This document shows positions 24,192-51,640 of a DNA stretch of 64,000 bases, in pieces. The stretch is from Muricea muricata (lineage: Eukaryota; Cnidaria; Anthozoa; Malacalcyonacea; Plexauridae): positions 9,262,883-9,326,882 of the forward strand of contig OY979725.1 of the NCBI GenBank assembly GCA_963855995.1, in the 5' to 3' direction. The stretch's first letter is position 1, and each line of letters starts with the position of its first letter. Made by a program: the position numbers and the translations under genes. The notes below the pieces were generated by a model. It worked only from the letters and a program-made list of their open reading frames with translations, did no database searches and was not told the DNA's origin.

Positions 24192-26941
24192 CCTGGACTC
24201 ACTGGACTAGCAAGAATGTTTGGTTTTTATCCCATACGATACAGTTAAACTTGATCCTGGATAGAAATAAGTGTATAACATGCTGACTTAATTTTATTCC
24301 TCAAGTTATTGGTGAAAATACATCGCTCGTCGCTCTATGTACTTCTATTTCTTCAGTGATGTTTCAGATCTTTCTTTTTCTGTGTCGACGCAGTTTTTAC
24401 CCTTCAGGTTTTTAAAAAACTTGTCTTTTTTCAGTGAAGGCCTTTATGTGCCAAATATATGTGCTAATTAAACTATATGTTCTTGCCTCAAAACGATTTA
24501 TTTCTGTTTTAACTTTTTTTCATTTGTTTCTGAGCTTTACTTATTCATTTTGTAATGACTTTTCTTTTGTTCTAACCAGTGTGAGCATGTTTAAAGCAAG
24601 TGGGTTTGACAGCCTCCTCATAGCCAATAAAAGAGCACAGGAGCTTGGCCACAGAAAGAGATGGGGGGGGGGGGAGGTCTGGACTACCCATTTTTCAGAA
24701 CAAGATTTGAAGTTTGTTAAAACCCAGGTAGAAATAAAGGGGGGAGGGGGGGGGGTGTGGGCACATCATACAGAGCAAAAATAATTTTAGGCATCTGTAA
24801 TAAACACATTTTTTATCGTTACATTTATTAAAGCTGCCTAAAATGCATGAAATAGATGGTATGGACATCTCAGATCTGGCCATGGGTTTTGGGTATTCAA
24901 GTACCCTGGGTATTATGTAATTATGGGTATTTGGTATCCTATACACAAATCAAAGTCAAGTCGATTAACGACAAAATTGGGAATTGTTTGACGTAGCTTT
25001 GAAGAGCATAACTATTAAAAAAATTTCGAAGCTGTCCCTTACTCATTTAGCCAGGACAAATCAAATAAAAACAGGGCAACGGGACAATATAGAATGCAGC
25101 GAGACAATATATAGGATAAACCGGGACAGTCCCAGGTAAAACAGGAAGGTTGGAGATGGAATGTTTGAGAAAATATATATAACTTTATTGGGAATATTAA
25201 CAATAACAATAAGTGATTATTTCCCAAAAGGAAGAGTGCAAAATGGGACAGAAATAGCACATGCGAAATATATACAGAACATCAACTTGTACGGCAGAGC
25301 TATCTGCCGTAAACTTACAAACTTAAGGCAACTTACAAACTTTCCAAACCACGTTGACAGTTGCTAATGCATATGCTTGATAATTCATCATAGCATATTT
25401 ATTATCTCATAACAAAATTACTGACATTCACTAAAAGTGCAATTAATAATGGTAATAGGAGTGCAATTAATGCTCTAATATCATTTTTCTTTGTTTAGTC
25501 GATTCTGATTGGCTAAGAACTGTGCCGAATAATCATTAATCGACATAGTGTGCTGATTAAAAATTAATTGGCATGGATCGCGAGCCCCGCAGGGCGCAGG
25601 ATTTTTAAAAACCAAAAACATGAACAAATCAGTGAAATATTTTTTGAAAAATGATATTAATAGGAAATTACACTTGTTCTCGAAGTATTAATGAAAAATC
25701 ACACTTGTGTTTGGCGAACTATTTATAATATTATAAACATTTCCCCAAACACACGTGTGACTTTTCATTAATACTTCTCTGACCGTGTAATTTCCTATAC
25801 AAATCGCACTCCTGTAAACCAATGAAATTGAAGTATTTGCCACTGATTACAGAAGATATACAATTAGTGGAATTATTGCACTCCTCTCGACCAATCAAAT
25901 TTAGTATTATTTGTCAAGCATACAATAAATAAAATATAAATATATATGCTGTTCTTTAAAAAAACAAAGTTATGTATATAGAGAAAAGTTATATTATGTA
26001 TTATTGTTACAGTTATTTTAATGTAGGCAATACCAGTGTTTAATAAATGGGAATGCTAATAAAGATTGTTGTTGTTATATTTCTTGTTTTAATTTTATCA
26101 GGGATGATTATAAGAAGATTTTTTCAAAACAAAAATCTTCTTAATTCTTATAATCATTATAAGAAGATTTAAGACAATATAAGAAGATTTTTGACTTTAA
26201 AACAAGAATGTGATGATGTCATCAATTTACATCAAACCTTTATCCTATTACCCTAACCTAACAATGGAAATTGTGACATTGACAACTAGAAATCCCTTTT
26301 GAAAACTTATTGTATAAAAAAACTTAAACACTAAAGAATCTACTGTTTATTTGTTATGTATTAAAACCTAAAATGTACAAGTAACAGTGATCGTCTGAAA
26401 TCTTGAAGAACTATTTTTTAGTCATTGTCCACTTCCATCTTAAAATGGCAGATAGAAAATTACTATGAGTTTAATACAATACTTGAGAAATTGAGATCAG
26501 AAAGTGTTAAAACATTTTTATTTAATGTTTATTTTATAAGAAAATATAAGAAGAATTTTCATCCAAATTAAAATCTTCTTAAAATAATATAAGAAGATAT
26601 CAGAAGAAATAATATAAGAAGATTTTGTATCCCTGGATTTTATACAAGATAATTTCACCATTAGTTATCTAACATACCTTTTTCCCCAATTTTTAATTTG
26701 TCAAGGACATTCATGATTTATATTCAAACTGATTCAAATTGTATATATATATAATATATGTCAGTGATATTCTTTACATATATCACAGAAATATATATAT
26801 TTTTATATATCTCACTGAACTGTATGTAGAACTGGATATATATTCAATGGTTTATAGTGCTTCCAGTTTGGAGAAGCTTTCCGTTTAATTTTTTGTAACA
26901 ATTTTGAATTTTGTTGTATGTACGACAGATAAAAATAAAGC
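24192..26941. other. Intergenic spacer upstream of P450 copy 2
   Basis: No exon is supported. It has two poly-G runs (near 24663 and 24745), a word shared with 3711-3735 (GCCTAAAATGCATGAAAT) that marks a dispersed element, and a hairpin at 25661-25797. An AAGAAGATTTT-rich patch recurs at 26100-26180 and 26540-26630, and AT-rich palindromic sequence lies around 26740-26810. Confidence 0.5.
25661..25797. mobile_element. Fold-back MITE-like element
   Basis: TAGGAAATTACAC pairs with GTGTAATTTCCTA, and inside TATTAATGAAAAATCACAC pairs with GTGTGACTTTTCATTAATA. The loop is AT-rich and the element is non-coding. Confidence 0.7.
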
Positions 26942-28462
26942 ATGGCTGTTTTATGCTTAATTTTATACATTCTTGTCTCAATTTTAGTTGGATGTTTTGC
27001 CTTGGTTCTCTATTTCATAGGATATTTGTATTATATCCATAAAATCAACGATCATTTGCCTGGACCACCTCGTTCAAGCTTCATATGGGGTCATCTCCCA
27101 GAAATTTGGAAATACAAAGCGACAACGGGCAGACTGACGATCGAATTTGTACTGGAAAAACGACTGGAGCACGGTCCGATACTTATACTTTTCTTTCTTC
27201 ATAGACCTGTTGTATTTTTGGGTGATGCAACTTATTTGCGTCACGTTTTTATAAACAACCATGCAAGCCTTGTGAAAAATTCATTTAACTATGAAAAATT
27301 TGGCTTTGTCTATGGTGAGAGGGGCATTGGTTATGGCCTTATATCCAATTCAAACGAGGCTATGTGGCGCAAACGACGGCAACTTATGAACCCAGCTTTT
27401 CATCGCAAATGCTTAAAAGATTTTGTGAGCAATTTCAACAATGTTTGTGACATGTTCTTGTCTCGCATGGACACAGTTGTTGATGGTGGTAAGCCTACCA
27501 GTATGGTTCAGGAATTTGCAAATGTCACTTTGGAAGTGATAAGTCAAGTGTCATTCAATATCAACACCAATGCTATTAAGGACCCCAACTCCCAATTCCC
27601 TCAAGCAATACGACACTACCTTACAGGGGTGCAGGCCAATTTGGTGAGTCTATTTCCCTCTACCTTTCTTGCAATATTCCAGCTTAAGATATTTCAAAGT
27701 GCTACCAAAAGAGAGCAAATTAATGCAGCAAGATTTCTCAGAAAGTTTGCCACTGATTGTGTCATTTCTCGAATGCAGGACATTGCCAACGACAAAGCAG
27801 TCCCACATGACTTGTTGAGTCTTTTAGTCCAAGATGGTAGTTTGTCATTAGATGACATTGTTGATGAGTTCTTGACCATATTTATTGCTGGACAAGAGAC
27901 AACTGCAAATTCATTGTCATTTGCCTTGTATGAAATCATTAGAAACCCCCATGTTGAAGCCAAGCTTTTAAATGAAGTTAACAAAGTGCTTGGGGAACGG
28001 GACCATGTTGAGTTTGATGATTTGATAAAACTGAAATATCTCGGTCAAGTTTCAGAAGAAGCTTTGAGAAAATATCCAGTAGCACCTGCACCTGCAAGAG
28101 AGTTAATAAAGGATATTACAGTTGGGGGATATCATATTCCAAAAGGAAATGTTATCAGCAGTCGGCAGTTCCTTTTCTCGATGAATCCTGAATTCTTCGA
28201 GAATCCGGAAGTTTTTGACCCAGAGCGATTTTCAGATGCCAAAAGTATTCCAGACTTAAGCATGATCCATTTTCCATTTTCTTTTGGCCCTCGTAATTGC
28301 ATTGGACAGACTTTTGCCAAGTTTGAGTCAAAGGTTATTCTTGCTCGACTGTTGCAGAGGTTTCAGTTCAGATTATTGCCTGGGCAGACAAATAAAATGA
28401 AGACAAGGTTAACAATCACTCCCCAGGATGGTGTGATTTGTGAGGTTGCCAGACGTGAATAA
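26942..28462 (+). CDS. CYP46A1-like: CYP46A1-like cytochrome P450, copy 2
   Basis: Intronless frame of 506 residues, ATG 26942. It has an N-terminal membrane anchor, the hinge HLPGPPRSSF, I-helix AGQETT (from residue 316), K-helix EALR with KYPVAPAPAREL, DPERF, and a canonical haem loop FSFGPRNCIG with Arg451 and Cys453. It is therefore expected to be a working P450 anchored in the endoplasmic reticulum. Nucleotide identity with copy 1 is very high from the hinge onward (for example residues around YIHKINDHLPGPP are almost unchanged), while the first 20 or so codons and the upstream sequence differ. Copy 1 has one extra residue near QDHGSLSLDD. By resemblance to CYP46A1 the substrate may be a sterol, but this is inference. 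Confidence 0.95.
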   Translation: MAVLCLILYILVSILVGCFALVLYFIGYLYYIHKINDHLPGPPRSSFIWGHLPEIWKYKATTGRLTIEFVLEKRLEHGPILILFFLHRPVVFLGDATYLRHVFINNHASLVKNSFNYEKFGFVYGERGIGYGLISNSNEAMWRKRRQLMNPAFHRKCLKDFVSNFNNVCDMFLSRMDTVVDGGKPTSMVQEFANVTLEVISQVSFNINTNAIKDPNSQFPQAIRHYLTGVQANLVSLFPSTFLAIFQLKIFQSATKREQINAARFLRKFATDCVISRMQDIANDKAVPHDLLSLLVQDGSLSLDDIVDEFLTIFIAGQETTANSLSFALYEIIRNPHVEAKLLNEVNKVLGERDHVEFDDLIKLKYLGQVSEEALRKYPVAPAPARELIKDITVGGYHIPKGNVISSRQFLFSMNPEFFENPEVFDPERFSDAKSIPDLSMIHFPFSFGPRNCIGQTFAKFESKVILARLLQRFQFRLLPGQTNKMKTRLTITPQDGVICEVARRE

Positions 28463-29286: not shown

Positions 29287-29989
29287 TAGATGACGCGAGA
29301 AGGCGCTAGAGCACTCTAAATATTTTTTTACACACCCTGTACAGTACAACGCTTTGCAATATAAAACAATTGGCGAGGGACAGACAGTTTGGAAAACCGG
29401 GAAGTTTTGGAATCTGAAAGAATCGATCGAAGGAAATCACGTAAACCAGAGTTTTCAAGCGACAAATATTTTCGGCCGTGTGAAATGTCATTTAATATTC
29501 ATAGTTTTTCTAAGAATAAATTACTAGTAATATGTACAAGGGTCATGCAGCCGCTAGATCCGTTTCAAAGGTTAATCAAGTTTCCAGAAATGTACCTGCA
29601 TGCAATGCTCAAAGTCGCCCTTACCAAAAGTTGCACAACAGTCTACAAGCGACCTAACTGCAAAAGTTGATTGGTTTTACACACTTTGTAGTATAAAAAT
29701 AACTTGGATGTTCAGAAATATCGGATGTCAACGTTTTGAATGGAACTCAATTAATTATATAGTAAGTGTCAATTTGTATTGTTTGACCGCATTTTATTGT
29801 TCCACTTTTTGTAACTGTTTGTACCAGTCGAGGTACCAGTATTACTGTTCACGACTTAAATTGTGTACCGTTACATTCAAGAACAATATCGTCTGTTCGT
29901 GCTTTTTCCATATACAGTGTAGTACAATGTTTATTATATCCGCATTCTACTGTCGCGGTCAAATGAGTGGAACAATGAATTCATGCTTG

Positions 29990-31037
29990 CCTCATCCTTT
30001 CTCTGAATAGCATTTCACGCGACTAAAATTCGACTTATTATAAACAGGGTCTTGATGAATTTCTTATTTGTCAAAAGTCTACTGTTAAAACACACGTTCA
30101 TACAATCAGTCGGAACCACTGTATTGTAACGTTCGCTAAAATACGACATGCTGCGAATTTTTATATTAAATATTCAGTATTTACTTCAGTATTTACCTCT
30201 GAGTATTTACTTTAAAATATCCTATACTCACGCACATTGTTATATTGGAGATAAAATTGTAGCATTGCAGTGTTAAAATAAAAATAAAAATTGGACAATG
30301 CATGCATGAGTATATTATTAGACTATAAGTGTTTCTCAGAAAGATAATTCTAATGAACCTGCCTCATCCTTTCTCTGAATAGCATTTCACGCGACTAAAA
30401 TTCGACTTATTATAAACAGGGTCTTGATGAATTTCTTATTTATCAAAAGTCTATTGTTAAAACACACGTTCATACAATCAGTCGGAATCGCTGTTACGTT
30501 CGCTAAAATACGACATGCTGCGAATTTTTATATTAAATATTCAGTATTTACCTCTGAGTATTTACTTTAAAATATCCTATCCTCATGCACATTGTTATCT
30601 TGGAGATAAAATTGTAGCATTGCAGTGTTAAAATAAAAATTGGACAGATGCATGAGTATATTATTAGACTATAAGTGTTTCTCAGAAAGATAATTCTAAT
30701 GAACCTGCCTCATCCTTTCTTTGAACAGCATTTCACGCGAACAAAATTCGACTTATTATAAACAGGGTCTTGATGAATTTCTTATTTGTCAAAAGTCTAC
30801 TGTTAAAACACACGTTCATACAATCAGTCGGAATCACTGTAACGTTCGCTAAAATACGGCATGCTGCGAATTTTTATATTAAATATTCAGTATTTACTGC
30901 AGTATTTACCTCTGAGTATTTACTTTAAAATATCCGATACTCATGCACATTAGTGTTAAAATAAAAATAAAAATTGGACAGATGCATGAGTATATCATTA
31001 GACTATAAGTGTTTTTCAGAGAGATAATTCTAATGAA
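29990..31037. repeat. Three tandem copies of a 334-368 bp satellite
   Basis: Units begin at about 29990, 30359 and 30704, each with TGCCTCATCCTTTCT. They continue through CACGCGACTAAAATTCGAC, CACACGTTCATACAATCAGT and GACATGCTGCGAATTTTTAT, and end with GAGATAATTCTAATGAACC-like sequence. Length differences come from small indels such as the extra TTCAGTATTTAC. Copies are well over 90 % alike by eye and non-coding. Confidence 0.9.
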
Positions 31038-31795: not shown

Positions 31796-34700
31796 ATGGA
31801 TGACCAGAGAGATACCAAATTCCTAGAGACATGCCTTGAGTTATCACGGAACACGCCTGAGGACAAGCTAATACAGCTCAAGTTCTTGCTTCAAGATGTC
31901 GCCCCAGATATAAACATTCACGACCAGAAACTGCTTGTGGATTTAATAAGAAAGCTCGAAGCTTTAGGAATTGTAAATGGTGACACACCAGGGCAAGATG
32001 AAGCCTTATTGCTGTGTGAGATGTTTGATGCAGTTTCATTGCATAATCTTGCTGGTAAAGTTCGTTCACAGCTTCAAGTTCAAAAAGGTATTTATTTATG
32101 TAGACTGAACTGTTATTCATCACTATCAGTCAGGCACTTACGTAGTCTTCACAGAATAACCTTGAATACGTATAATGTTTTAATTTACTAGACAAAGGTT
32201 TTGCCTTGTTTGAGTTAATTTCTTTTGCTCTATAATGTGTTAGACAGTATGAATTCCTCACTGGGACGGGATGGCGCACCATAATACATTTTAAAGGCCA
32301 AAATAGGGGCTATCACAAACCTGTTGGGGGATTGTAGCTAGACTTGCTTGGCGAAAGAGAGAATCCAAAAAGAGAATTGTTTCATTTTTTAATAAAACAG
32401 AACTTTTGGATCAAAAGCGTGTGCACACCCGATGAAGTTTCCAAGCGTTAAATTAAAAAAAGATTTGAAAAACTCCGAACTTTTTTGCATTTTCGACGAA
32501 AACTTGCATAAACCTCCTCTCTGCATTAACTAGGAGAAAGATATGTATAAAGTTAGTTAGGATTTAAAGTAAAATATGGTTATCATGTATCGCAATTTAT
32601 CGCCAAACTATTGCAATAGATCACTGTATGAAAAAATTATTTTAGAAACACAAAAGATTAAATGGATAAAATCTTAAAGATTTTATCCATCACTGATCGA
32701 TCACCGACAACCAAACCACAGGATATCGATGATGAATTACTATAATATGAAAATTGAAAACCAGGCTAAACTATGTTGAGGAAATGCTGAGGGTTCAAAA
32801 TAGGCTTTTTCAATCCTATATAAAGTGGAGGGGGGCAGGAACCCAGGAGAATAATAAGGGCGGGAAGAGCGGGTTGGCGGGGTTGCAGGAGTCGTGAGAG
32901 GGTGGGAGGACGAAAAATAATGAGGAACGTAAAGTTTTTAACGACCTTTTATAGTCTCTTTCAAACTACCAGAAATCAAAACCAGAGAATATTGACTATT
33001 CACCATTTTGTACTGATATTTTAGTCCTTTTTAATGTCAGGAGACAATTTACGAAAAGGTACGAAAGGCACAAGAGGAGGTACGGGAGACGGAAGATGTT
33101 GACCCCCGTGCCCCCCCCCCTGCCCCCTATGTATCTCACTCAATTTTTTTGTACTCGCCCCGTTTCAGTAAAAAGGCTAAATCCCGCATCTCGTGATCTT
33201 CATATTGTTTTCATTCCTCTCTCGTATCATGTTCGTTCATCTTGTAAATCCCGCGTTCCGCAACTTTCAAAAATCCTGCTGCCCATTCTCCCAAGCATCC
33301 CGTTTCTCGTTACCAAAATGAGCGTAATCCGGCGTCCCGGATTATTGAGAACTTATTGAGAACACACAGGATAGCGATGTTTTGTATAAGAAATTTCTGC
33401 TATCGGTATGCCAGGAAAATTATAGCAGTGTTATCGGTAGTATATAACGACTTTTTTGTTACTAGAGAGAAAATTCTTCCCTTTGAATATGAAAGAATGA
33501 CATAGAACTGATCTACAATGTTTAGAAGCTCTTTAGAAGGAATTTTAGTCATGCCCAGCCCATTTCGAGCTTCTCAGAACCCGTCTTTGTTGTGCGATGA
33601 GGCAAAATCGATGATATGACCATATTCTAAGTTTTACTGTATCTTTAAATTTCTTTAGATCCTTTGCATCAGAAGATCTCGTCATTCCGAAAATTACTTG
33701 TGACATTGGCAGATCATTTAAATCAAACTCCATTCATTAAAAAGATGAAAGAGTATTTGCAAGCAGTCAAGCCACAAGCTTGTGATATTTTAAACAATTC
33801 TTCTTGTCCAGATATTTGCCCGTTGGATATATTCCAGGTTATGATGCAAGCTTGTTTAATTAGCGAAAATGAGTTATCTAAATTGAAAGACATGTTGGAA
33901 TTTTGCTCAAGAGATGATCTTGTCAAACGTATTGATGAATTTCTCAACAAAGCAGGCGGTTTTAAAAAAGGTAAGCTGTAGAAAGCGCTCATTAACTAAC
34001 AAAGAGAGCTTGGCCTTTCTGGGTAAATGCTTTCTACCCTTTTCCCTGGCCTTCTCGTGCGCAGGTCGGTTTTCCGTTCCGAAACTCTGGAGAAGGCCTA
34101 GAAAAATGTATAATTTGCATCATGGACTAACATTCGATCTTGGCAAGAAGAACAAAACCTATTACTTCAGCTCGTAAGTGGATCCTACGATTAGTAAAAT
34201 TTCTACGTTTGACCAAGAGGCGTCCAAGTCATTCATTTTCAAGGGCTGTTTACAGCGCCATTTAACCATGAAACCTTGTAACCATGTTTTAATTCTAGAA
34301 GATATTTGACTTAAAAACAGGGTTAAAAGGCTGCTATTCTTGGATCGAGGACAGCGTTTGAATATGGGTGACTTGTGCCGCTTCTTGTTATCAATGGCAG
34401 CCTTCAATTTGGCTTCAAACATACGGCCAAGTTATCGTTTCAGGCATTTTTTTACAGAGTCTTCTGTTCAGAACGTTATCTTGAACCGCTTTCGTTGTGT
34501 ATTCTAGTTCCCTACGGCTTACGCCCTCTACCTCATGACATGGTGGAACGTGATTCAAACGTTGGTGAGATTTTGGACTTACTTAAAAAGGGAAATAATC
34601 GAGTGGGTGTGGTCGGACGTCGTAGCCGTGACGTCATTGGTATTCGCGGCATGGGTGGCCTGGGTAAGACCGTCTTGGCTCAGGCTGTTGGCTGGACTGC

Positions 34701-37700
34701 TGCATCACAGTCTCGTCAGGTTATCTGGCTTGACATTGGCCAACAACCAAACTCCTTAGCTCTGATTAACACTCTCATCAAAGCTCTTGGGGGAACTGTA
34801 TCGTTCAGTGATGTCGCTGGCGCACAAGAATGGGTAAAAGAATATACGGTATGTATACTATCCCTGAGGATTCCGGTGATCATTCTTATAGTGTTGATTA
34901 ATAGAAGGTATTGTTTAATAGGGCCTGTATTGTGTTCATGAGTATTCACAAGTATTCATGATCTCTAGAATGAGCTGAAGGTTTTGTAAATTAATGGAAA
35001 TGAATTGTTTTGGAAATGAATAATAATAGTTTAATGACGTGGCCAGATTGTCTGACTGGCTTAGCTTCTCAGTACCAGTTTTGCACAACTCTGTGTCTGT
35101 GATTCAGTGACAATGCCTTGCAACAATAGTTATATCCTTATTTTTACACGCACTCATTTGTATCACTGCACATTTGTGAGCCAAATTTCGCAGGAAAAGC
35201 AGGTTCCACATGCAAATTTCTATTTGCAATTCATTGTATCTAATGTACGTTTATTGATTGAGTTTTTTGCTTTGAAGTTTATTGATATTCCGGTTTGTAC
35301 TGTGTTAGTATCATATTCAGTGTTCTGTGTCGCTACTTTAGTACTTAGTAGTCCGCTCGCAGACCAATAGTGTAGTTTTTGAAGATTCAAGGTTCGAGCC
35401 AATTTCGACTAATTTCGACGTTTCGAAAGCTTTGCAATATTAAATTTACGTAGTGTTTCCACAAATCCAAGCTCATGATAAGTAGGATTCTAAATTTTAT
35501 AGCTACACAGTTTCCATTTTATCGTTGCGCATTTTGTTTTTATCACTGCACACTAAAATTGGGTATAATCTGCAGGTCGATAAAGATTGTTTGGTTGTAC
35601 TTGACGATGTCTGGAACGTTGATGACGCCGCCGTGTTTGATCATCTGTCAGGAAAATGTCAGTTGTTGATAACTACCAGGGATGCTGACGTTGTACGCGG
35701 CCTGCGAGGTTCTACTCTCTACGAGCTGCAAACTTTGGAAAAGGACCAATCGCGAAAACTCTTGTATCAAAGTGCCGATGTAACCCCCGACGAACAGACT
35801 ATGTTCGGTGCAAACATGCAACGAATTGTCGCGGAACTGCTCGACCAATGCCGAGGGCTGCCGCTGGCCTTGTCCCTAGTGGGCTCAATACTAAACGATA
35901 TTCGTCTCGAACGGTACTGGCAAGATGTTTTGGACGATCTCAAAAATGCTGATTTGGCAAAACTGCATTCGCTGTTTCCCAGCAATGCCTATCCTTATGA
36001 TAACGTCTTGGCAGCCATGGATGTTAGCTTCCAACGATTAGGGGAGGAAGCCCAAGAGAAGTTCATGGATTTCGCTATATTTCCAGAAGATACGGATATA
36101 CCGTCTGATGTACTCGAGCTCTTCTGGTCTTCGAGCGTCGCCGGAAGAAATTCGTGCAGCGATCGGGATGTAAGACGTATACTTGATACGCTTGAGAGAA
36201 AATCGCTGATTTTGAAAGGTATTCAGGGGCGTTTTGGGGGGGGAGAGGGCCAGATTTTTAAATATGTTTAGTTTTTGAAGAAGTTTACGACTTTCCAAAA
36301 TGATGTTTCAGTAACCTGCCTAAGACTAGAACAGAAGTGTAAATATTTTTAACTGTTTTTGTCAGGACCTGTGATCCATGGAAAATACAGCTACCGTGTT
36401 CACGATCTCATATTGGACTTCGCACGCGCCAAACTTCGAGCAAAGGGCATGTTAATTGACGTCCGGCGCCTTTTCCTCGAGACTCTACGTGAACATTGCG
36501 TGGACGGCGAATGGTCAAAGTTTCAAGGGAATAAAGAATATTTTTTCGGATACCTTGCCTTTCACCTGTGCTCCTCGGAACAATATGGTCAACTCCTTCA
36601 ACTGTTCTTCAGCTTTCACTGGCTTGAAGAGAAACTGAGATACACCAACTTACCTTCTCTTTTATCGGATTTTCGTTTCCTAAGCAGGATCTCCCATGAC
36701 ATTGAGCTTCTTAAATCATCGTTGATGCTATCTGCCGATGTCATCGAGAATCACCCGCATTCTATTGGCTTGCAACTGTTAGGTAAAAAAATGATTTATC
36801 TTTACGATATATGCCTTGTCTTAGCGTGTCTTGCCAAGTTATTTGCTTTTAGAAAACAGTCGTCCGCTTAGGTACTTGCCTCCTTCGCAGGCTCGATCCT
36901 CGTTGGACACAGTACGTACAGTGTAACTATGGAGATCAGTGGCTTGATTAGCCACCGAGGAATCTTAGGTACTACAATACCCCTTTGCCTTGCCTTACGT
37001 TACCTTGTTTTGTGTTATCTTGTCCTGTCTTACCATACCATATGCATGCCACGCCATACCATGCTATGCTATGCCATGCCATGCCATGCCATGCCATGCC
37101 ATGCCATGCCATGCCATGCCATGCCATGCCATGCCATGCCATGCCATACCATACCATACCATATCACAATCCCAGTGACCATTCTTGTAGTGTTAATTAA
37201 TAGAAGGTATTGTTTAATGGGGTCTGCATTGTGTAGATAGTTTTGGAGATCCATGATCTCTGAAATGGGCTGAAGGTATTGTAAAAATTACCACACCGCA
37301 CCGTACAATACCATACCATACCATACCATATCACAATCCCAGTGACCATTCTTGTAGTGTTAATTAATAGAAGGTATTGTTTAATGGGGCCTGCATTGTG
37401 TAGATAGTTTTGGAGATCCATGATCTCTGAAATGGGCTGAAGGTATTGTAAAAATTACCACACCGCACCGTACAATGCCATACCATACCATACCACACCA
37501 CATTTGTATTTGTATTGTAGGTAGATTACTGTCGTATGCCGACGAAAACGCAACTGTGAAAACGCTACTGGAAGACATCCGCGAAGAGTGTGTGAAAACT
37601 CGCTATCTCATCCCCTTGTTTCCTTGCCTATCCGAACCTGTGGGTCCACTGGTAAAGATTTTCAGCAAGAATATCAAAGATACAGTGTATTCAGTAGGGA

Positions 37701-40700
37701 CCGCTGTTAGTGCAAATGGTACCATTGTCATGTCTGCTTTTGCGGACAGTTTGATCAAGATCTATGAACTAGAAACAGGTATGTCGCTCTACTGTATACA
37801 CAACCAGAAACGCACATGTTACAGTAAGTCTGCCGCAGGCTTGTTTCCTAACAATCATCAAACTGATAGCAGGGTGTTTTCGTATCGCTTGGCCTGGGTT
37901 ATATATCTTCTGATTTATGTATCTTTTATTACCGTCATTGCTAATTTGTTAACAGTTAGACTTAGTAGTCATGTGTAGTAAAAAAATTGTAAGTCTACTA
38001 CACATTGAAAAACAAAGCAAATAGACACTTCCCGAATTTATTCTGTGGGCATAAAAAACACTTCTTTTCAATAGGCTTCATACCCCACCTCGATTTCAAG
38101 CTATTGTTTCGTGTGCACTCAAGCAAATTCGGGAAGTGTCTATTATTTTTCCTTTGGAATTTGTTTTTGAGGAAATGGATTTCTATATGAAAACTAGCAC
38201 CTGAACTTTTCCGTGTTTTCAGATCAGCTGAACAGTAAACGCTTTATTTAATATGTATTTATTTAAACAGGCAAGGAGCTGCAAGTGTTGAATGGACATG
38301 CGATGTCAGTGTATTGCTTAGCTCTGTCACACAGTGGAACGATACTTGCGTCCGGTTCTTATGATTCTACTACAAGACTATGGAATATGGACAGTTATGA
38401 AGAACTTTTTGTCTTGCAAGGAAATGGTGGTTTTGTAAATGCATTAGATTTCAGTGCCGATGATCGGCGCCTTTTTACGGGATCGAATGATGGTAAGTCT
38501 TGTAAGAGTGTTATATATACAACATGCAGTTGCATAACTGTGTTCAGACCGAGTGTCACACCCCCCCCTCCCCCCTTTTTTTGCTCAGGCTGTAAAGCCA
38601 TGACCAATTGGAAATGCACAATGTTACTACTGTTCATTTGCTATAGTTTAACCCTAGGATAACTTAAAATTGAACTTCAAAGTGATCTATAAAGATGGCA
38701 CCGAAACGTCCTTCCAATAATATAATTTTTATGACTTTAGCTTAATGTGTATCCGTATTGTGTATTGTGTATATAAAGGGAAATTGAGAGTTTGGAATGT
38801 GGCCACCGGTGATTTGATGAGCACCATTCTTGCGCATGATGGACAAATCCGGGGCCTGTGTATTACAAAAGATGGTCATTACGTTGCTACTGCATCTCTC
38901 GATCACACAATCAAGCTATGGCAAGTTGAGACATTGAATGAACAAGCTTCACTAGTTGGCCATACTGACACTGTATACAGCGTGGTCGCAACAGGTATGT
39001 ATACAGAACGTGCAGAGTTGGAAATAAGCAGCGTCAGAACCTTTGAAGTTTGTGTTCCCACGCATTGGAAACTACAAAACGAGTGACAATCGGGGACCCC
39101 CCCCCCCCCCCACACCACATTTTTTTCGTTAGAGTCTAAAATTATGCCGTATTTAGAAAGTAACAATCCGATGCTCGTGTCTACATCGGGAGATAAAACC
39201 ATAAAAATCTGGGATTTACAAACATATGAAGAACTTCGCACACTGAGTGGCCATCAAGGCGAGGTGTACTGTGCCGCTGTTACCCCGGATACGAAGCACA
39301 TCATCTCTGGCGGCGAGGATATGATTGTACGATTGTGGTGTTTCCACACTAGCAAGTTACTTTTCTGTTTCAAAGGTCACAGTCAGTCAATCAGGTGGGT
39401 TAAAGTATATTGTCATTTTAGCTGATCTTTGCAATATGATCGACAAGATACTCGACAAAAGCGCCGATTTACACTATGCGACAAGTTGGGTGCGATTGTT
39501 ATTGTGGCGTATGTAAGGTATGGTATGGTATGGTATGGTATGGTATGGTATGGTATGGTATGGTATGGTATGGTATGGTATGGTATGGTATGGTATGGTA
39601 TGGTATGGTATGGTATGGTATGGTATGGTATGGTATGGTATGGTATGGTATGGTATGGTATGGTATGGTATGGTATGGTATGGTATGGTATGGTATGGTA
39701 TGGTATGGTATGGTATGGTATGGTATGGTATGGTATGGTATGGTATGGTATGGTATGGTATGGTATGGTATGGTATGGTATGGTATGGTATGGTATGGTA
39801 TGGTATGGTATGGTATGGTATGGTATGGTATGGTATGGTATGGTATGGTATGGTATGGTATGGTATGGTATGGTATGGTATGGTATGGTATGGTATGGTA
39901 TGGTATGGTATGGTATGGTATGGTATGGTATGGTATGGTATGGTATGGTATGGTATGGTATGGTATGGTATGGTATGGTATGGTATGGTATGGTATGGTA
40001 TGGTATGGTATGGTATGGTATGGTATGGTATGGTATGGTATGGTATGGTATGGTATGGTATGGTATGGTATGGTATGGTATGGTATGGTATGGTATGGTA
40101 TGGTATGGTATGGTATGGTATGGTATGGTATGGTATGGTATGGTATGGTATGGTATGGTATGGTATGGTATGGTATGGTATGGTATGGTATGGTATGGTA
40201 TGGTATGCTTTATTTAAACACGCTGACCTCTACAGTTAAAAACTTATTTCCAAGAGGTGAGTGTGAGCAAATTTACAAAATACATAACTAACAATTACAA
40301 AGTAAGATTGCTTACTATAGGACAGTAACAGGCTAGTTGCAATTGAGAGAGAATTAAAATGTATTATGCTTTCAGTATGCCAATTTGCAATAAAGCTATG
40401 AAGGGTGGGCAGCCATTGAAGAAGGTTCCATGTCAACAAACTACATAATGTACTGTAGATAACAAAAAATTAATAGATAATGGCCTGTTCAAGAAATCGT
40501 TCGTGCTTTCTGAAGGAAATTCCCATCTTCAATTTGGAATAGCCTAACTTTACCACATTTTTAGGAGGGATCGCAAACTTTTAAAAATTTTCCTGGAGGA
40601 AGGCAACCTCATGCCCAGGGTCTTTTACGCACGCCCGGCGCTTGGATGAAGGTTAAATCTTTTTGAAACTCTGTCGTAATGAAAATGGCCTTTGAGCACT

Positions 40701-43700
40701 TTATGCACTCGTGAAATAACAAAACACCGAAGAGGTTACCGTATCACTGATGTCCTCAACCCGAATATCGACATTCATCTTTTTATGTGTTTCAGGTGTG
40801 TGACATTGATTTCTGATGGATCTAAGGCGCTCTCTGGTTCGCAAGATAAGACCGTTAGAGTGTGGGATCTTGACATCAGTGCGTACTTGAAGCAAGACAG
40901 GTCACTTGGTCATGCTGAAAGCATCATTGATATTGCAGTGTCAAGCGATGGCTCAAGATGTGCCTCCTCATCCATGGATGGCACATTCAAAATTTGGAAA
41001 TGCGAGACAGGAGAGGAATGCTTTACTTTTAGAGGTAGTTACAGTTGACTATTTCTGGGGTAAGATCTGGAGTAACAATTGGCTTCTGCTAAAAACTAGT
41101 TTAAAAATATGGCGATATATTTTTTGTGACTTATCTATAAAAACGATTGAAGTAACAAGTAATATAAGTCTTTAAATTTTTGGTAACATGCTTATTTTCT
41201 AAAATATTGAAGAACGAAAGACACAAGCCGTTCGCCATCTTGTTTTATAATTAGTTCTTTTTTAAGGACGTCACAAGCCCCAGCTTGACTGTCTAAAACT
41301 TACTGTCAATTAGTTAAATCCCAATGAAACTTTCTTAAACACTTGGCGATTTGCGTGACCAATCTAGTTGGGTTTTACATGATAACATTGGACAAATTTT
41401 CTAATTATTTCCTGGAGAAATGATTGTTACCCTAGCGTGACGTCAGGAATATTTTTGAATATCCAATATGGTGGATGCTATCGTGCCTTTGTCTTTCAAT
41501 ATTTTAGAAAGAAATTAAAGCATGTTATCACAAATTTAAAAGGCGGGTATTACAGTCGCTTGAACGTTTCGTATTGATAAGCCATTAAAACATATATTAC
41601 CATAACCTTTTAAGCAAAGGATGGGGGAGGGGGAGTTGAAAGCAACTAACTGTCGTAAATTTTTCGTTCTTTTCAATTTTCTAAAACGAAATGAACTGTC
41701 GAAATTCAATCGAATTTTCTTTGAGCTGTATTGCTACTCCACGTAAAAAATTTCATACCAAAACGTTTGGTTTCCTTTACGCTCTCATGTTCACAGACAT
41801 TTCTTTGCGCATTCGTGCAGTATGTTAATATTATTACTCATTGTCCATCACATTTGAACGCAAATGGAGCAAATTCGCAACCAAATTGACCCGGAACTCT
41901 TCCTTCGGCATTGACAAATATATGTGTGCAAAATTTTGCGTCGAATTGTTTTTTTTTTATCAGTCCTGTTCACAACTTCATCTTTAGTGTTCTTCGCGTA
42001 AACTTATTCGTCATTATTCGTCAGCTAGCAAGTACTATTCCCCTCTGGAAATATTTATAACGGCACCTTTGTGAAAGCTTAAACTGCCAGAGTTTAAATG
42101 CTTCTGTTTGGAGAAGTTACTGGGTTACGAAGGGATGACAAATAGAGCTTATAAATGGAAGCCCTGAAAACGACCTTTTGTATTTTATTCTATCCACATC
42201 TACACAAACCCAGATAATTGGATAACCTCTTGTCGAAAGTAAAAACGTCTCTTGCCCTCAAGTAAAAGCATCTTACGCTTTGTTAATTATTTTATTAATT
42301 TTCTTGGTATGTATTCCCAGGTTTAAAGGGGCACTTCGATGAAACTTTGGGGGCCGATTTTTTTCTATTTCCTAAAACTGCGTTTCTTGAAATACATACC
42401 AGTAAAATATCAGCACAAAATATTGAGTAGAAAGCTTTCAAAGCTCCGATCAAAAATTCGTATTTTACGGCCGCCATTGATTTGAGCCTGCTTTTTAATT
42501 GTGAACAGCGGTCTGTTGTGACGTCATTTTCTCACTTCCTTTCTGCTTTCATTGGAATATGTGTTGACGTCTTTACATATATCGCAGACGCAGTTTCAGA
42601 AAATAAAAAAAAATCGGCCCCCAAAGTTTCATCGAAGTGCCCCTTCAAGTCTCTAAAGTCTTACTTTTTCACTTATCCACAACTAGGTCTCAGAAGAAGA
42701 GCAGTAAGCGTTGCAATTACCGCTGATGGCCAGCATCTCGTATCACTCTCGAAAGACTCCTTGTCGTCGATTAAGGTATAATAAAGCAAAAAAAGAACAG
42801 CTCAAATACAGCGTTTTCTTAATTTTATACAGACTAAAAAATTAAATTTTGAATCATTTTTAACGATTCTACTTTCAAGTGCGTAATATGTAACATGTAA
42901 ACAAACTGCTTCAAGTGATATGACAGTATATTTTTATTTTTGCTTATCGATAAGAGCCTTGCATAGTTTACGAAATATCGAAGGACAGAAACACCAGCCA
43001 TCTCGGTTATTTTGAAATTCAATGACGTCACAAGCAGGACAAAATAATTATTATCAAATATCTTCAATGTTAAAATCCAGCTGAACTTGTATGTATATAT
43101 ATACTTCTTTGGTAAATTGCAAAGAGTTTAAGAACATTTCATTACGATTTAACCAATGGACAGTAAATTTTATACATCTTTCTACCCTGCTTGCGATGTC
43201 ATTATAGTATATGTCATAAATTATAATCATAAATTATAAACTGCTGTCATGTGACCACCAATATTTCACAAACAGAGCATGTTACCAAAAAATTTACAGC
43301 CAAAATTTCATAAAAGAAAAAAGTGTTGTATCCTTTAAAGGTTTGGGATTTGCTAAATAACAGAGAAATTAATGGTATTGATCGCGACAATGATCCTCGC
43401 TTGGTCCGCTTTAATTCTGATGGAACGTTGGTCCTAATTGGATGCAACAACAACCAAGTGTTCATCTGGGATTGGGTGAACTACGATGTACCTTTGAAGT
43501 GTGTCTCCTTACCCGCCTTTACCACGATGGACATAGCATGCGGTGGGAACGTGATCTACACGTGTAGCAGGAATATGGAAGTGTGTCAAGTCGATGTCGA
43601 CTCCTTAGAAGTGTCAAGCATGAGTCAAGGACCCAATCCAACTTGCACGTCAATGGTCGTGTTGCCTGACGGCAGAGCTGTTTTGTGCGGGATAACTACA

Positions 43701-46700
43701 TCTAGTTCGTTTATTTATTGGGAATTATCGACTCGCCGTGAGATCAAGTACAATGCAGGTCTGTAATAGTAGCTAACGTTTGTTTACTCCGTTGCCACCC
43801 AATTCCCATCGTCGGATTATTCATGTGGTTGGATACCATTGTTTTGATTTGCGGAATAGTACATTAGGACAAAGGTAACCAGGCATACGAATGACGAATG
43901 CGTGTTATTCTCGTATGTCCATACTTCTAAATGCGTAGATATTTTTGTTCCCCGTTACGCTGCCGCAAGCTAATATAACAGTAACTAGGCATGTGAGTGA
44001 TCTTAAAATGTGAATTGAGTATAAACAAGCGTTAGACGATTGTGTCTATTGCAACTTTGCCGGCAAGTTCATTAGGATAAAATAGGTTGAAAGAGGATAA
44101 GATGAGATGAAATGGGATAGGATGAGTTGAGATTGGGTGGGATGAGTAGATTACATGGGTTGAGATGACAATAGTTAAGATAAAATGAGGTACAATAAGT
44201 TGGAATGATATGAAAGGGGATAAAGTTGAGTGGAATGAGATAGTACAAAAAATAGTTTGGAGTGATAGGATGGCTTGACTGGGCTGAGTAAAATAAGTTA
44301 AGAAATAAACTAAAGTATGTCGCCTATCGCGTACTTGATTGGTTGTACGTTTTCATCAAAAAGATTAAAGGTCTACATGGATAAAAACGCTGCACAAATT
44401 GTCAACAAGTTGTGTTTACACCGTTTGTTCCCAGTTTGTTGTAACAAGTTTAAGACAAGCTTTTAACAGCTTGTAACAAGCTTGATGGTATTATCACACA
44501 AATCTGATATAGACACGATATAACAAGAATGTTACAAGACTGACCTAAAAGGTGTTGTAACAATATTGTGATATCATGACTGTATCAGACGTGTTCGAAT
44601 GACCTTGAGACCCTAATATCAACAAGGTGTGGACGCCGTAATTGTTTGAAGACTTGCGTTGCGAGACTTTCTCGTGCGTAAGCGTCAGACATCTGTAATT
44701 ACTCCACGTTTATTGAATACGTCAAATGTTTTTCCACTTTCAGGTCATCCTGACAACTCGATAGTCACCGCAATTGACATCACTTCCGATGGATTGCTTG
44801 CTTTGTCGGGGAGCAGTTCAGGATCGTTATCACTGATGAACTTGGAGAGTTCTACCATAGTCCAGATGTTCGAAAAGACCAAAGATGGCGCTGGTATACG
44901 CTTCGTTAGCGTGTTGAAAGACGATGCCAGTTTTGTGTTTATAGACGAAGCGAACAGAGTTGAAATAAGAAGCTTCAACAGCAATGATGTCGGGTTATGT
45001 GTGGGTCAACCTGCTGCTAAGGTGACCAGTGTCACTCCTCTCGATTCAACCAGTGTTCTGTTTGGTTTTGATAACGGGGAACTGTCATTGTTTGATTTCG
45101 TTGAACATCGTATGCAAAACTACCAAGCTCATTCCGAAGCCGTTACTCAGCTTGAAAACCGCCAAAGGGGTTCATTTTTATATTTTGTATCGGGTTCATC
45201 CAGTGGATCTGTAAAACTTTGGTTTGTCACTAAAACCGATCCGCCACTGTGGACGGAAATTTGGTCACATGATCACGTTCACCTGCACCCCATTACCGCC
45301 CTGGCATTCGTGCCCGACTCGCAGGACATCTTAATTGGTTCATACGGCTGCGAGGTATGTTGAACATCTGCTTGTAATAGCCTCTCCAAGATGGCTTATC
45401 AAAAATACAATACATGAATAGGGTAAAAATTTGCATAAATTCAATACAATAAGATCTATATGTTATTTAGGTATATTTACATTTGGTAAGGATATATGCA
45501 TACTAATGCGCATATACCAGAAGCAAGTCAATCGAGAAAGGGTCTAGAACTATGTTGAGTTTTGCTTCACCGTGCACAAACTTTTTTGAAATTTTGCCTA
45601 TTGGTATTTCAATAGTTAGGGTAAAGTTGTGGCCCCGTCACTTCATTATACAAATACAAAAATTCATTGTCATCACCGTGCACAAGTCATCATAAACACG
45701 AACAAAAAGATGGAACAAAGACGTCGTTAGAGTTTCCAGACCTTATCTCTAGTAGACTGACTATGGCACGACTAAATTGGTGGCTTAAATATAACTCAAT
45801 ATGCTGAGTTAACTCAATCACTATGCAGAGTATGTCTTTGTCGTCTTTTTGAAAGCACCGATACTTGAATTGTTCAGGTGAGCCTCAATTTATTGGATGT
45901 CAAGTGGGGAACTTCTGGCTTACTTTCTCGTCTCTTTCTTTAGTTTTCACAAAAAGCCTTAGTGGAGGAGAGAGAGCTAAGGGAAAGTTGTGTTATTTTT
46001 ATTGATACAGGTACATCGCATTAACGACTCTGGTATTGTATTGACGTACAAGTTTAGGTGTTACAGAATTGCAGCAATGCGTGTAGTGGGTGATTCCCTC
46101 ATCGCTGCATGTCTTCACGGCTTTAGTGTCGTAAAGTGGGATCTGGCCAATGGCTCGCTGACTAAGCAGTTGCATAGTGGTGCTGGGAGAGAACAAGTAC
46201 CACATGTTGATCTTGCTTCTGACCGCGTGGCCTCCAAAGGTATGTTATTAATGATTTTGATTGTGATCATGATGATTATGTTTATGATAATGATCATGAT
46301 GATTAGGATGATGATAATCATGATGATTATGATGATTACGACAATCGTAATGATTATGATTATTCTAATGGTCATGATAATCATAATTATTTTGATGGTC
46401 CATGATTATTTTGATTATGATGATGATCATAATTATTTAATGGTCATGATGATCATGATTGTGATTACGATGATCATGATGGTCATGATGATAATGATCA
46501 TGATGGTCGTGATTATTTTAATGGTCATGATGATCATAATTATTTTGATGATCATGGTGATCATGATTATGATTACGATGATCATGATGATAATGATGAT
46601 AATGATTATGATGATCATGATTATGATGATACGATGATCATGAGGACCAACGTAACATAACAGTTACCACAAAACACCAAGACACAAAAAATCATGATCA

Positions 46701-47056
46701 TCATACAATTACTACATATTTCTTTAAATCGCACTTTAGGTTCTAATCATTCTCTGCTATTTTGGAACCTCAGAACTGGAGAGACACATAACAAGTTTCG
46801 TGGTCACACGCATGATATCAGATCGCTAGCATTTGTTTCCGGAGGTAAATTTCTTTTGTCAGGCTCGCGTGACAAGACCCTGAAATTGTGGAATCTCGGA
46901 AATGGACGGTTTGTTGAGGAGTTTCATTTCGAGCGCTTTGTTCAAGCTATTGCGTGTTCTTCAAATGGGATCGTGTGTGTTGGCCTACAGGGTGGGCAGG
47001 TCTGCATTCTGCGTTTCAATAATTTGTCTTCCGATGAATTTTCTAATAGAGGCTAA
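31796..47056 (+). CDS. Tandem-DED / NB-ARC / double WD40 protein (APAF-1-like scaffold)
   Basis: Fifteen exons: 31796-32087, 33659-33970, 34508-34848, 35576-36218, 36366-36782, 37521-37778, 38271-38492, 38779-38994, 39133-39394, 40796-41034, 42687-42775, 43341-43758, 44744-45354, 46011-46239, 46740-47056 (TAA). They total 4866 nt, 1621 residues, with every junction in phase. Two N-terminal death effector domains occupy about residues 1-97 and 98-201. The second keeps the RxDL signature (RDDL, 182-185), and the first does not. The NB-ARC module has P-loop GMGGLGKT (249-256), Walker B LVVLDD (321-326), LITTRD (346-351), GLPLAL (409-414) and VHDL (541-544). From about residue 715 to the end are some 14-16 WD40 blades, enough for two propellers (for example [50 protein letters not shown]). 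APAF-1 has the same NB-ARC and WD40 order but a CARD. The likely role is an oligomerising, DED-recruiting cell-death or immune scaffold, which is inferred. The Met at 31721 is an alternative start. Confidence 0.92.
32560..32770. mobile_element. Diverged inverted-repeat element (AAACCAGGC family)
   Basis: The left side ATCATGTATCGCAATTTATCG and the right side GATGAATTACTATAATATG...AAAACCAGGC resemble the two ends of the element at 52749-52917. The centre contains a near-perfect palindrome around 32660-32690 (GGATAAAATCTTAAAGATTT). It is in intron 1 of the NB-ARC gene. Confidence 0.45.
34863..34992. repeat. Intron 3 copy of the intron 5 repeat
   Basis: It shares ATAGAAGGTATTGTTTAAT, GTGATCATTCTTATAGTGTT-like and ATGATCTCT...GCTGAAGG with the two 167-bp copies in intron 5 of the same gene (37164-37475). 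It is diverged and lacks the pentanucleotide run. Confidence 0.6.
37043..37163. repeat. (CCATG)n/(CCATA)n pentanucleotide array in intron 5
   Basis: Fifteen perfect ATGCC units at 37071-37145, followed by three ATACC units, with degenerate units before. Both strands stay open through it, creating several spurious short frames. The unit is the near reverse complement of the giant array in intron 9. Confidence 0.9.
37146..37500. repeat. Tandem 167-bp repeat with CCATA runs
   Basis: TCACAATCCCAGTGACCATT occurs at 37164 and 37331, a period of 167 bp. Each unit starts with a few CCATA pentamers and ends with CACACCGCACCGTACAAT. A third unit begins at about 37478 and is cut off by the exon 6 acceptor at 37520. 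Confidence 0.8.
38024..38140. mobile_element. 117-bp MITE, copy 2 (TA target site)
   Basis: Same length and sequence as 7528-7644 apart from one substitution, with the termini GACACTTCCCGAATTT and AAATTCGGGAAGTGTC and flanking TA. It is in intron 6 of the NB-ARC gene. Confidence 0.8.
39517..40207. repeat. Giant (GGTAT)n array, about 138 copies, in intron 9
   Basis: About 691 bp of perfect GGTAT pentamers with no visible interruption. All three plus-strand frames remain open through it (Tyr-Gly-Met-Val-Trp), giving spurious frames of about 240-270 residues. The array lies between exon 9 (ends 39394) and exon 10 (starts 40796) of the NB-ARC gene, so it is transcribed. Confidence 0.97.
42326..42645. 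mobile_element. 320-bp MITE with long terminal repeats, intron 10
   Basis: AAGGGGCACTTCGATGAAAC and TTTGGGGGCCGATTTTTTTC at the left have near-exact reverse complements at the right end (GGCCCCCAAAGTTTCATCGA, AGTGCCCCTT). The arms are about 48 bp. Its right end is only about 40 bp before the exon 11 acceptor of the NB-ARC gene. Confidence 0.8.
44095..44310. repeat. Degenerate GGGATGAGATGA purine-rich repeat
   Basis: A strand-asymmetric run of imperfect pentamers such as GGATAAGATGAGATGAAAT in intron 12. It is followed at 44390-44600 by a diverged copy of the ACAAGT-type dispersed repeat. Confidence 0.6.
46246..46645. repeat. Degenerate GATGATCAT/GATTAT low-complexity array, intron 14
   Basis: About 400 bp of imperfect trinucleotide and hexanucleotide units (ATGATGATTATG, GATCATGATGGTCATG) with many self-complementary TGATCA words. 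Runs of Ile and Met in translated frames are artefacts. The real coding part ends at the donor after 46239. Confidence 0.85.
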
Positions 47057-48846: not shown

Positions 48847-51640
48847 ATGTCTTCTTTTTCACGCTTTTTAAAAGAGCTGCCGTTCTTACCGAAACATTTC
48901 AGGGCCAAGCAAGAGCAAGAGGCTCGTAGGGCTGGCGCAGGCCCAGACTTGACAGGAATTACGATCAATGTCTACGAACTGGAGCTCAACGATGACAGTA
49001 CGGAGCAGTCTCGGGATACCAATAGCGACCAGGCAACATCGTTCGATACGCCAAAACCCGATAACGTCAGCGAACGTGTGTTATCCTCTGCAACCACCTC
49101 AAGATTGGGAGCAATATCGGCGCGACCGATACGCTATACAAACGTGGTTGTTTTCTGCAGGAAATGCCGTGATGAGATCCCTGTGCGGTACGTGGTGTAC
49201 CATCGAAGACGACATGAAGCTTTGGATATCCTGAAATACTCGTCAGGTACTGTGTTTGTCTAGGTATTTACATTCCAGAGGCCATCTTTCTTCCATTCCT
49301 TTCAGTCGCTGTAATTTTTAAAGGCAGTGGAGGGGCTCTGTGGAAACTAATGATTACGATAGTTGAGGAGTCTGAATTTGGCATTGCCGTATAATTATTT
49401 CGGTGTCAATGACGAGGTTAAAATGGTTCGAATATCCATCGGTGTTTTATGGCATCGTCTTCGCCGAACCTCTATCAACAAGAAAGTTGGAAGCTCAGCT
49501 CTCTTCCCCCCCTGGCTACGTAATTCCTCCAACCAGTCAGGTCAAGGAACTTGAGTTTTATAGTAAAGAGAGTGTTAACGTCCTAAAACACATTAATAGG
49601 GTAATTAATATTAACTGGCTCGATTGACATTTGTCTTTAAAAATGCTCTAAGTTAATGTTTCCTAAATTTGCCTCTAAAATTATGACTTTTTAGATTTTG
49701 ATGTAAACAGTAAAATCACCATGATGTTTTTTTAACTTTCAGATTTTCCACCGAAGACAATGCGGGCTCTTCTTCGGCGAAGGTATAAGATGGTCACAGA
49801 CGTGGTGGAAAGAAGAGACTTAGACCAAGCACAGATTTTTAATCTAACACAAAAAATAAACATGGCGTTTGGAATTTTAAAATGCGAAGTAGAAGGAACG
49901 GATGAACACGCCATCAATGTTTCACGTTGGAGAGGTAAGCTGAAACTTAAAAGGTTCCCAGTTGATCCATTTGGATCCGGATGATTTGGATGCATTCACC
50001 GCTGGCCAATAGCCTGGTGCTGAAAAACATACCTGCGAGAGGTTTTGGAGAAAGTTACAAAACATTAAGGAAACCCAGAACCGTGCCAATACTGTTGATA
50101 AATAAGTTTCTTGCATGCATGGTGAATATATCAATATCACTATAATTTTGTGGACAGACGACGTTAATTGATCATCAAGAATAAAAAACAAAAACTAAAC
50201 ACTACGTCAAAACCGCCCCCCCCCCAAAAAAAAATAAACACCACGTAAATTTATTATCATAATTTTATCAGGCTATAATAAATTCGCGCGTGGTGTTTCC
50301 ACAAAGTTACAATGATCTGATACAGAGAGTGCTTCAGCTTAAATGAGATTAAAACAGTGATGCGTGTGTTCCAAGTTTTGTTATTATCTCTCTTTTTAGA
50401 GAAGGACATTAAAACAGATGGTAAAGCATTCAACTCTGGTATAATTCTTGGCATAAGCAAATACAGAACGCCCGAGAGTGGTTTGTCGATAACCAAGACA
50501 GTTCACGTCGATAATTTCCTAGAAAACAGAGGATTGTTTTTCGGAATTTACCAAGGGTACAATGGCAGCCATGTGGCAAATTTATGCGCCCGCGAGCTTC
50601 ACAAAGAAGTAAAAGAGCATCTTCTTGATGTTCCGGATATTCGTGATAATTCCGAGATTTTGAGATCGGCTTTCCGAGAGGCGTATCGGAAGATCGACAG
50701 AGTTCAACTGTTAGGGGAAGGCGAGCATCCGGTGAAAAGATGGAGTGGCTGCTCCGCGGTGACCTGCCTACTTCTCGAAGAGGTACTTTATGTTGCGAAT
50801 GAAGGAAACGTGAAAGGGATTCTAATCCGAGAAAACAACACAATACGCGCCATCACTACATCGCATGATTTGTACAACCGAAAGGAACGTATGCGCGTGC
50901 GCAGAAATTGCGGGGTTGTTGTCAAGACAGACAAGTGTGCGCTCGTGAACGGAGTCCTGGGCACCACGCGCGGCCTGGGCAACCAAGGGGACTGGAGACT
51001 TAAGATATGCGTTATTAACAAGCCGAGATTTCGTGTTGTAAGTTTGAAGGCAACAGACAAAATGATCGTGTTCGCATCTGATGGCATCTGGAGGGTTTTT
51101 GGTCATGACGATGTTTTGTTTCTTCTGAATAAATTTCTACGCGACGCTACGTGTAAGCGGCACTGCTCGCAGGAAAGCTTACTGAAGGCCAAAACACCAG
51201 ATGTACTCGGTTTTCTGAGCGTACCGACCGTTCACGTTGACAAGGAATACCAAGCTTACCTCAGAAAGCGGAATGTAAATCCTATCGATACAAGGGCGCC
51301 GCAGCATGTGAAATGGAGCTCAGACAATCCGACCATCGTAATCAGGCGTGCGTCGATCGTTCAAGAAAAGCCTTACTTAGAAGAGGGCAAGAAGGCGGAT
51401 GATTCTAAGAAATTCTATTTCACCGATTTCGAGCAAGACGATGAAGATTTACAGGAATTATCAAAGTTTCTCAATCATTACAATACGGACTCGTCTTACA
51501 CGAGGCGCGAGATTGCGCGGCTGCTCAGCAAACGTTTACTCAAGAGTGCTTTGATCGCGGGCGCGGAAACTGATAATATCGCACTCGTGTTGTTGTTGAA
51601 AGGCTTTGACAGTGAAGAGCACAGACATAAAAATACATAA
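48847..51640 (+). CDS. PP2D1: PP2D1-like PP2C pseudophosphatase with C2H2 finger
   Basis: Three exons, 48847-49246, 49743-49934 and 50400-51640 (TAA), encode 610 residues. The N-terminal part has a single C2H2-type finger (Cys104, Cys107, His119, His123; CX2C-X11-HX3H) in FCRKCRDEIPVRYVVYHRRR. The PP2C fold begins near residue 200. FFGIYQGYNGSHVANLCARE aligns with the catalytic DGHGG segment, but the metal-binding Asp is Gln249 and the His-Gly is changed. LYVANEGNVKGIL has Asn where PP2Cs have GDSR, and RGLGNQ replaces RALGD. The later Asp residues in SDGIW (424-428) and TDN (588-590) are kept. Loss of the first metal ligand argues against normal phosphatase activity. The length and the finger-plus-PP2C order fit PP2D1 (PP2C-like domain-containing 1), whose function is poorly known. 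Assignment to PP2D1 rather than another PP2C-like family is tentative. Confidence 0.8.
50236..50299. mobile_element. Short MITE with ACACCACGTAAAT termini, copy 2
   Basis: AAACACCACGTAAATTTATT pairs with AATAAATTCGCGCGTGGTGT, and both ends match the family at 12851-12943. It lies in intron 2 of the PP2D1-like gene beside a C9/A9 homopolymer stretch (50215-50234). Confidence 0.65.

Follow-up and report, generated by a model that had tools for sequence, protein, structure and literature searches.

A predicted Muricea muricata paralogue of APAF-1 that carries a pair of death effector domains and no CARD

Analysis of a 64,000-nucleotide stretch of Muricea muricata DNA (the window, to which coordinates below refer unless another locus is named) identified a 15-exon predicted gene on the forward strand, the predicted protein of which has the domain order DED-DED-NB-ARC-WD40. 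The gene is read here as an APAF-1 paralogue and not as a replacement for the normal scaffold, because an APAF-1 gene with two CARDs sits in the same genome. At a probability of roughly 0.6, the protein would be a nucleotide-switched STAND scaffold in which a wheel of DED pairs recruits tandem-DED caspases, either directly or via a FADD-like adaptor. The central idea, DEDs in place of a CARD, is not new, since DED-bearing Apaf-1 homologues of the sea anemone Nematostella were already published in outline in 2007; in the portion of text available, Zmasek et al. (PMC2246300) describe an expanded Apaf-1 repertoire in which the single CARD is swapped for CARD pairs, death domains, DEDs (Nematostella), or TIR. 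An earlier, sequence-only reading of the locus had taken known APAF-1 proteins all to use a CARD, a view at odds with these published versions, the DED one from Nematostella and the Death and TIR ones from other animals.

Splicing of the 15 exons (Table 1) gave 4866 nt encoding 1621 residues with zero internal stops, which reproduces the length and the span (31796..47056) of the sequence-only reading. All 14 introns of the spliced model are GT-AG and their phases are consistent. The start codon at 31796 is assumed, and more in-frame ATGs lie upstream, so extra N-terminal residues are possible. Several repeats are found in and around the gene: intron 9 carries GTATG about 140 times (39509-40207), a tandem repeat of a 346-bp unit in 2.5 copies lies just 5' of the gene (29988-30897), and intron 5 contains a 167-bp unit in 2.1 copies (37144-37502), the frame of which resembles part of intron 3 (34849-34941) and suggests a dispersed element. 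Elsewhere in the window, two long cytochrome P450 open frames (16399-18045 and 26939-28462; Pfam E 1.5e-90 and 5.9e-92, respectively) are probably single-exon genes, and further frames match RhoGAP (2535-3191), an EamA transporter (11436-11951), and PP2C (50321-51640) in Pfam.

Table 1. Exons of the predicted gene, in window coordinates, with the domains assigned to them
Exon	Position	Strand	Content
1	31796..32087	+	DED1, residues 1-97; searched alone, E 3e-4 with Pfam DED (below cut-off)
2	33659..33970	+	DED2, residues 98-201; symmetric phase 1-1; RDDL in last helix; searched alone, E 6.2e-8 with Pfam DED (below cut-off)
3	34508..34848	+	NB-ARC, P-loop GMGGLGKT
4	35576..36218	+	NB-ARC Walker B LVVLDD, TTRD, GLPLAL; winged helix begins
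5	36366..36782	+	Winged helix ends (VHDL); APAF-1-type helical domain; Pfam APAF-1-like_WHD E 3.1e-7, APAF1_C E 1.2e-11
6	37521..37778	+	Helical region ends; WD40 unit no. 1
7	38271..38492	+	WD40 (Pfam, repeat model)
8	38779..38994	+	WD40 (Pfam, repeat model)
9	39133..39394	+	WD40 (Pfam, repeat model)
10	40796..41034	+	WD40 (Pfam, repeat model)
11	42687..42775	+	WD40 (repeat model)
12	43341..43758	+	WD40, degenerate units; weak donor GTCTGT (repeat model)
13	44744..45354	+	WD40, units mostly degenerate (repeat model)
14	46011..46239	+	WD40, degenerate units (repeat model)
15	46740..47056	+	WD40 and stop codon (repeat model)

To assign the N-terminal domains, residues 1-201 were searched against Pfam-A (24736 models), which returned DED in two stretches with E 2.6e-11 and 44.1 bits; the pair passes the cut-off of 35.9 bits, and each domain alone falls below it (DED1 21.4 bits, DED2 33.2 bits). 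The sole other Pfam row for these residues was a weak leucine-zipper model (E 0.082). CARD, PYD, and Death gave zero rows at E<=1, a search in which the HMMER filters remove most matches above ~0.1. When the whole genome was scanned for DEDs at E<=0.1, the 31 matches included DED2, which fell short of the cut-off, but not DED1.

Models were also built from the genome's own domains, using 19 of the 20 DEDs that passed the cut-off (leaving out a partial match) and 10 of the 12 CARD matches. Against the DED model, DED2 scored 30.4 bits and DED1 14.1 bits, compared with maxima of 8.2 and 7.2 bits, respectively, in 200 shuffles of each. Against the CARD model both scored ~0 bits, inside the shuffle range, where left-out real CARDs scored 45 to 86. 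In the leave-one-out controls all 19 DEDs and all 10 CARDs preferred their own model, with the DEDs spanning 26.6 to 90.0 bits, so that DED1 lies under every one of them and DED2 over a single one. On the strength of these scores, shuffles, and controls, DED2 is predicted to be a secure though divergent DED, DED1 a weak DED that stands above chance, and neither a CARD. A CARD identity of the N-terminal domains is rejected on the zero CARD rows in Pfam together with the own-genome CARD model. The proposal of DEDs instead of a CARD was borne out, the Pfam search with residues 1-201 returning DED only from among the DED, CARD, PYD, and DD families and not the two CARDs that would have spoken against it.

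The DED motif pattern used for comparison comprises RxDL and an acidic residue in helix 2. The translation has RDDL in DED2 and no RxDL in DED1, as the sequence-only reading had noted; DED1 has LHNL at that position. By eye, DED1 retains the helix-2 LKFL motif without RxDL, and DED2 has RxDL without the usual acidic residue of helix 2. Because each misses a different motif, the two DEDs may, speculatively, offer different faces. AlphaFold2 models made from the single sequences, with no alignment, gave no confirmation of the six-helix death fold in either domain: the best of five models of DED1 reached pLDDT 72.9 with no DED among the structural matches listed, and that of DED2 was unusable at pLDDT 47.8. 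When the PDB was searched by sequence, residues 1-201 matched 6 rows at E<=1, led by a designed repeat protein (E 0.025) and including two for FADD (E 0.86).

Downstream of the DEDs, Pfam reports NB-ARC (E 5.7e-32) and the winged-helix and helical domains of APAF-1 type (Table 1), all over their cut-offs. The ATPase motifs [28 protein letters not shown] were found in the translation, in agreement with the earlier claim of an NB-ARC domain with all main motifs. Walker A and B, GxP, and winged-helix His motifs are present, and together with the APAF-1-type winged helix and helical domain and the C-terminal WD40 repeats they place the predicted protein in the broad CED-4/Apaf-1 family of NB-ARC proteins. 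The best match among solved structures is human APAF-1 (E 2.1e-28), which takes in NB-ARC, the winged helix, and some of the helical arm, with plant NLRs ranking behind it (best 5.2e-17).

The remainder of the protein, residues 721-1621 (901 residues), is WD40, in which Pfam gives 11 stretches. An iterated WD40 repeat model found 15, 17, and 14 units over three rounds, several with scores near zero, and hand tiling of the same residues gave ~21 units of ~43 residues each. Because of this hand count, three seven-bladed propellers fit and appear likelier than two, on arithmetic and not on a structure, and the two propellers proposed earlier are probably an undercount.

A conventional APAF-1 gene was located at C5:15940-15955 kb (L049, L050), with two CARD matches, an NB-ARC exon, and WD40-like frames recognized by eye. 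Its NB-ARC aligns with human APAF-1 at E 6.2e-82 and 279 bits (query 295), compared with 103 bits for the window gene (query 519), and the two NB-ARC domains share 27% identity over a 284-column alignment. The window gene differs from APAF-1 proper in two respects, as it has no N-terminal CARD and is not the closest relative of human APAF-1 in the genome, the tandem-CARD gene being closer. Both genes have a common layout in which every recruitment domain occupies an exon of its own: the exon of the first domain ends in phase 1, that of the second is symmetric (1-1), and the splice into NB-ARC is again in phase 1, with the phases of the tandem-CARD gene worked out by eye. This supports the assignment of exons 1 and 2 to the window gene and suggests either a module swap or a parallel fusion at identical junctions. 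Among the 31 DED matches and 41 NB-ARC exon matches listed as the best candidates, only the pair in the window is close (0.9 kb start to start); the window DED is the sole one within 600 kb of an NB-ARC match, the next-nearest of those listed being 627 kb away. Likewise, among the 12 CARD matches listed only the pair of the tandem-CARD gene lies near NB-ARC, at 1.7 and 3.3 kb, with the next at 136 kb. The DED count holds for NB-ARC matches only, and it missed a locus on C13 (L053, 1296-8607) because the ATPase there resembles NB-ARC only weakly (E 0.0012, below the cut-off). At this locus a DED exon precedes a STAND ATPase frame by ~2.7 kb, and TPR frames are present as well, so that it is a possible DED-STAND-TPR gene.

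Candidate partners with DEDs were found in the same genome. Two adjoining loci at C12:785-797 kb (L051, L052), in which DED matches are followed by caspase matches, are read as tandem-DED caspase genes; the frames of one, checked by Pfam, contain DED in two stretches and caspase in two exons. On C10 (L054, 1465-3807), a DED exon precedes one for a Death domain, which makes the locus FADD-like. Because these genes are present, plausible DED partners of the predicted protein exist, which agrees with the caspase-8/10-like or FADD-like partners suggested earlier as far as candidates go; which of them is used is a matter that we infer. As caspase-domain matches are numerous (98 rows), the choice of partner cannot be read from the genome. 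Close to half of these rows by hand count (48 of 98) fall in a dense cluster at C8:9.69-9.85 Mb, where several pairs have identical scores, and six matches with identical scores and ~8.2 kb spacing at C1:96.53-96.57 Mb are probably recent tandem copies.

The conservation of the ATPase motifs suggests the usual STAND cycle, which is why it is proposed for the predicted protein; we infer oligomerisation, partner choice, ligand, outcome, and ATPase cycling. The WD40 region would hold NB-ARC closed in the autoinhibited ADP form until a ligand, which need not be cytochrome c, binds to it and brings about exchange of ADP for ATP. The ATP-bound form would then assemble into a wheel, and the resulting ring of DED pairs would nucleate DED-DED stacking with a caspase-8-like initiator bearing tandem DEDs, directly or via a FADD-like adaptor, so that the initiator is activated by proximity. 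A bolder version, put forward tentatively, is that of a second, parallel apoptosome beside the tandem-CARD one, in which a three-propeller sensor of something other than cytochrome c forms a DED ring that directly activates caspase-8-like proteases, such that the division into intrinsic and extrinsic pathways fails there.

Other readings of the gene were weighed against this scaffold. The WD40 region is longer than that of APAF-1, as might be expected if the protein were an immune sensor and not an apoptosome, its WD40 repeats reading a microbial or nucleic-acid ligand and its DEDs signalling to NF-kB or inflammatory outputs. Lancelet, fly, mouse, and human Apaf-1-like proteins are reported, in the text seen of PMC11747288, to bind dsDNA, and Apaf-1 is reported there to drive NF-kB; the dsDNA binding is the reason for taking a ligand of nucleic-acid or microbial origin seriously as an alternative. 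In the sections seen of two other papers, coral NACHT/NB-ARC proteins have DED among their listed N-terminal domains (PMC4083563), and DED-NACHT proteins are described in amphioxus, sea urchin, and Nematostella (PMC2575513). Against this, the protein has a winged helix and a helical domain of APAF-1 type, which fit an apoptotic role too, and an immune-sensor role is judged the less probable option, at about one chance in four. More doubtful is that the protein acts as a decoy or brake, with DED1 capping DED assembly in the manner of FLIP-like tandem-DED proteins and the scaffold limiting caspase-8-like activation; the LHNL that replaces RxDL in DED1 and the missing helix-2 acidic residue of DED2 would suit this, but the full set of ATPase motifs suggests an active switch.

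It is also conceivable, though very unlikely, that exons 1 and 2 form a separate tandem-DED gene and that an NB-ARC-WD40 gene begins at exon 3, within which there is an in-frame ATG at 34540. The gap between exons 2 and 3 is only 537 bp, exon 2 must splice on in phase 1 and exon 3 accepts phase 1, and the tandem-CARD paralogue has, by eye, the identical layout, all of which argue for one gene. The caspase-recruiting scaffold remains the preferred reading. Of the sequence-only interpretation as a whole, the domain order, the DEDs, the lack of RxDL in DED1, and the candidate partners stand, whereas the CARD-only precedent does not and the propeller count probably does not.

The interest of the locus is moderate and lies in the coexistence of two differently wired APAF-like scaffolds. 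If the window protein works as proposed, one genome would contain a CARD-based and a DED-based scaffold, each leading to a different initiator caspase. It could then be tested whether separate intrinsic and extrinsic pathways are a later specialisation of older, interchangeable recruitment modules, for the swapping of which the common layout of one domain per exon in phase 1 suggests a route.

Compared with known systems, the predicted protein shares NB-ARC, winged helix, helical arm, and WD40 with human APAF-1, which has a CARD in place of the two DEDs and 15 WD40 blades as opposed to the ~21 units counted by hand. The tandem-CARD gene of the same genome resembles it in having two recruitment domains, an exon for each with equal phases, NB-ARC, and WD40-like frames, but carries CARDs instead of DEDs and is far nearer to human APAF-1. 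The C13 locus also places a DED exon before a STAND ATPase, but has a single DED, TPR repeats, and a weak NB-ARC. Among cnidarians, the text seen reports a single APAF-1 in Acropora digitifera (PMC4083563) and three putative Apaf-1 genes in Nematostella, of which the dsRNA-induced one groups with CARD-NB-ARC sequences (PMC11251625). No further report of a DED-bearing Apaf-1 turned up in the available portions of PMC6321704, PMC11251625, PMC4715348, PMC10236652, PMC7642931, PMC10192318, PMC13303787, PMC4083563, PMC2575513, or PMC11747288. The nearest likeness is to the CED-4/Apaf-1 homologues of Nematostella, in which, in the text seen of PMC2246300, DEDs replace the CARD before an Apaf-1-type NB-ARC and a two-CARD Apaf-1 occurs in the same genome; the likeness is by description, as that text gives neither the number of DEDs nor the C-terminal repeats. 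To this the present locus adds an intact gene model with a DED pair and an unusually long WD40 region, placed on a large contig and accompanied in the same genome by a tandem-CARD paralogue and tandem-DED caspases.
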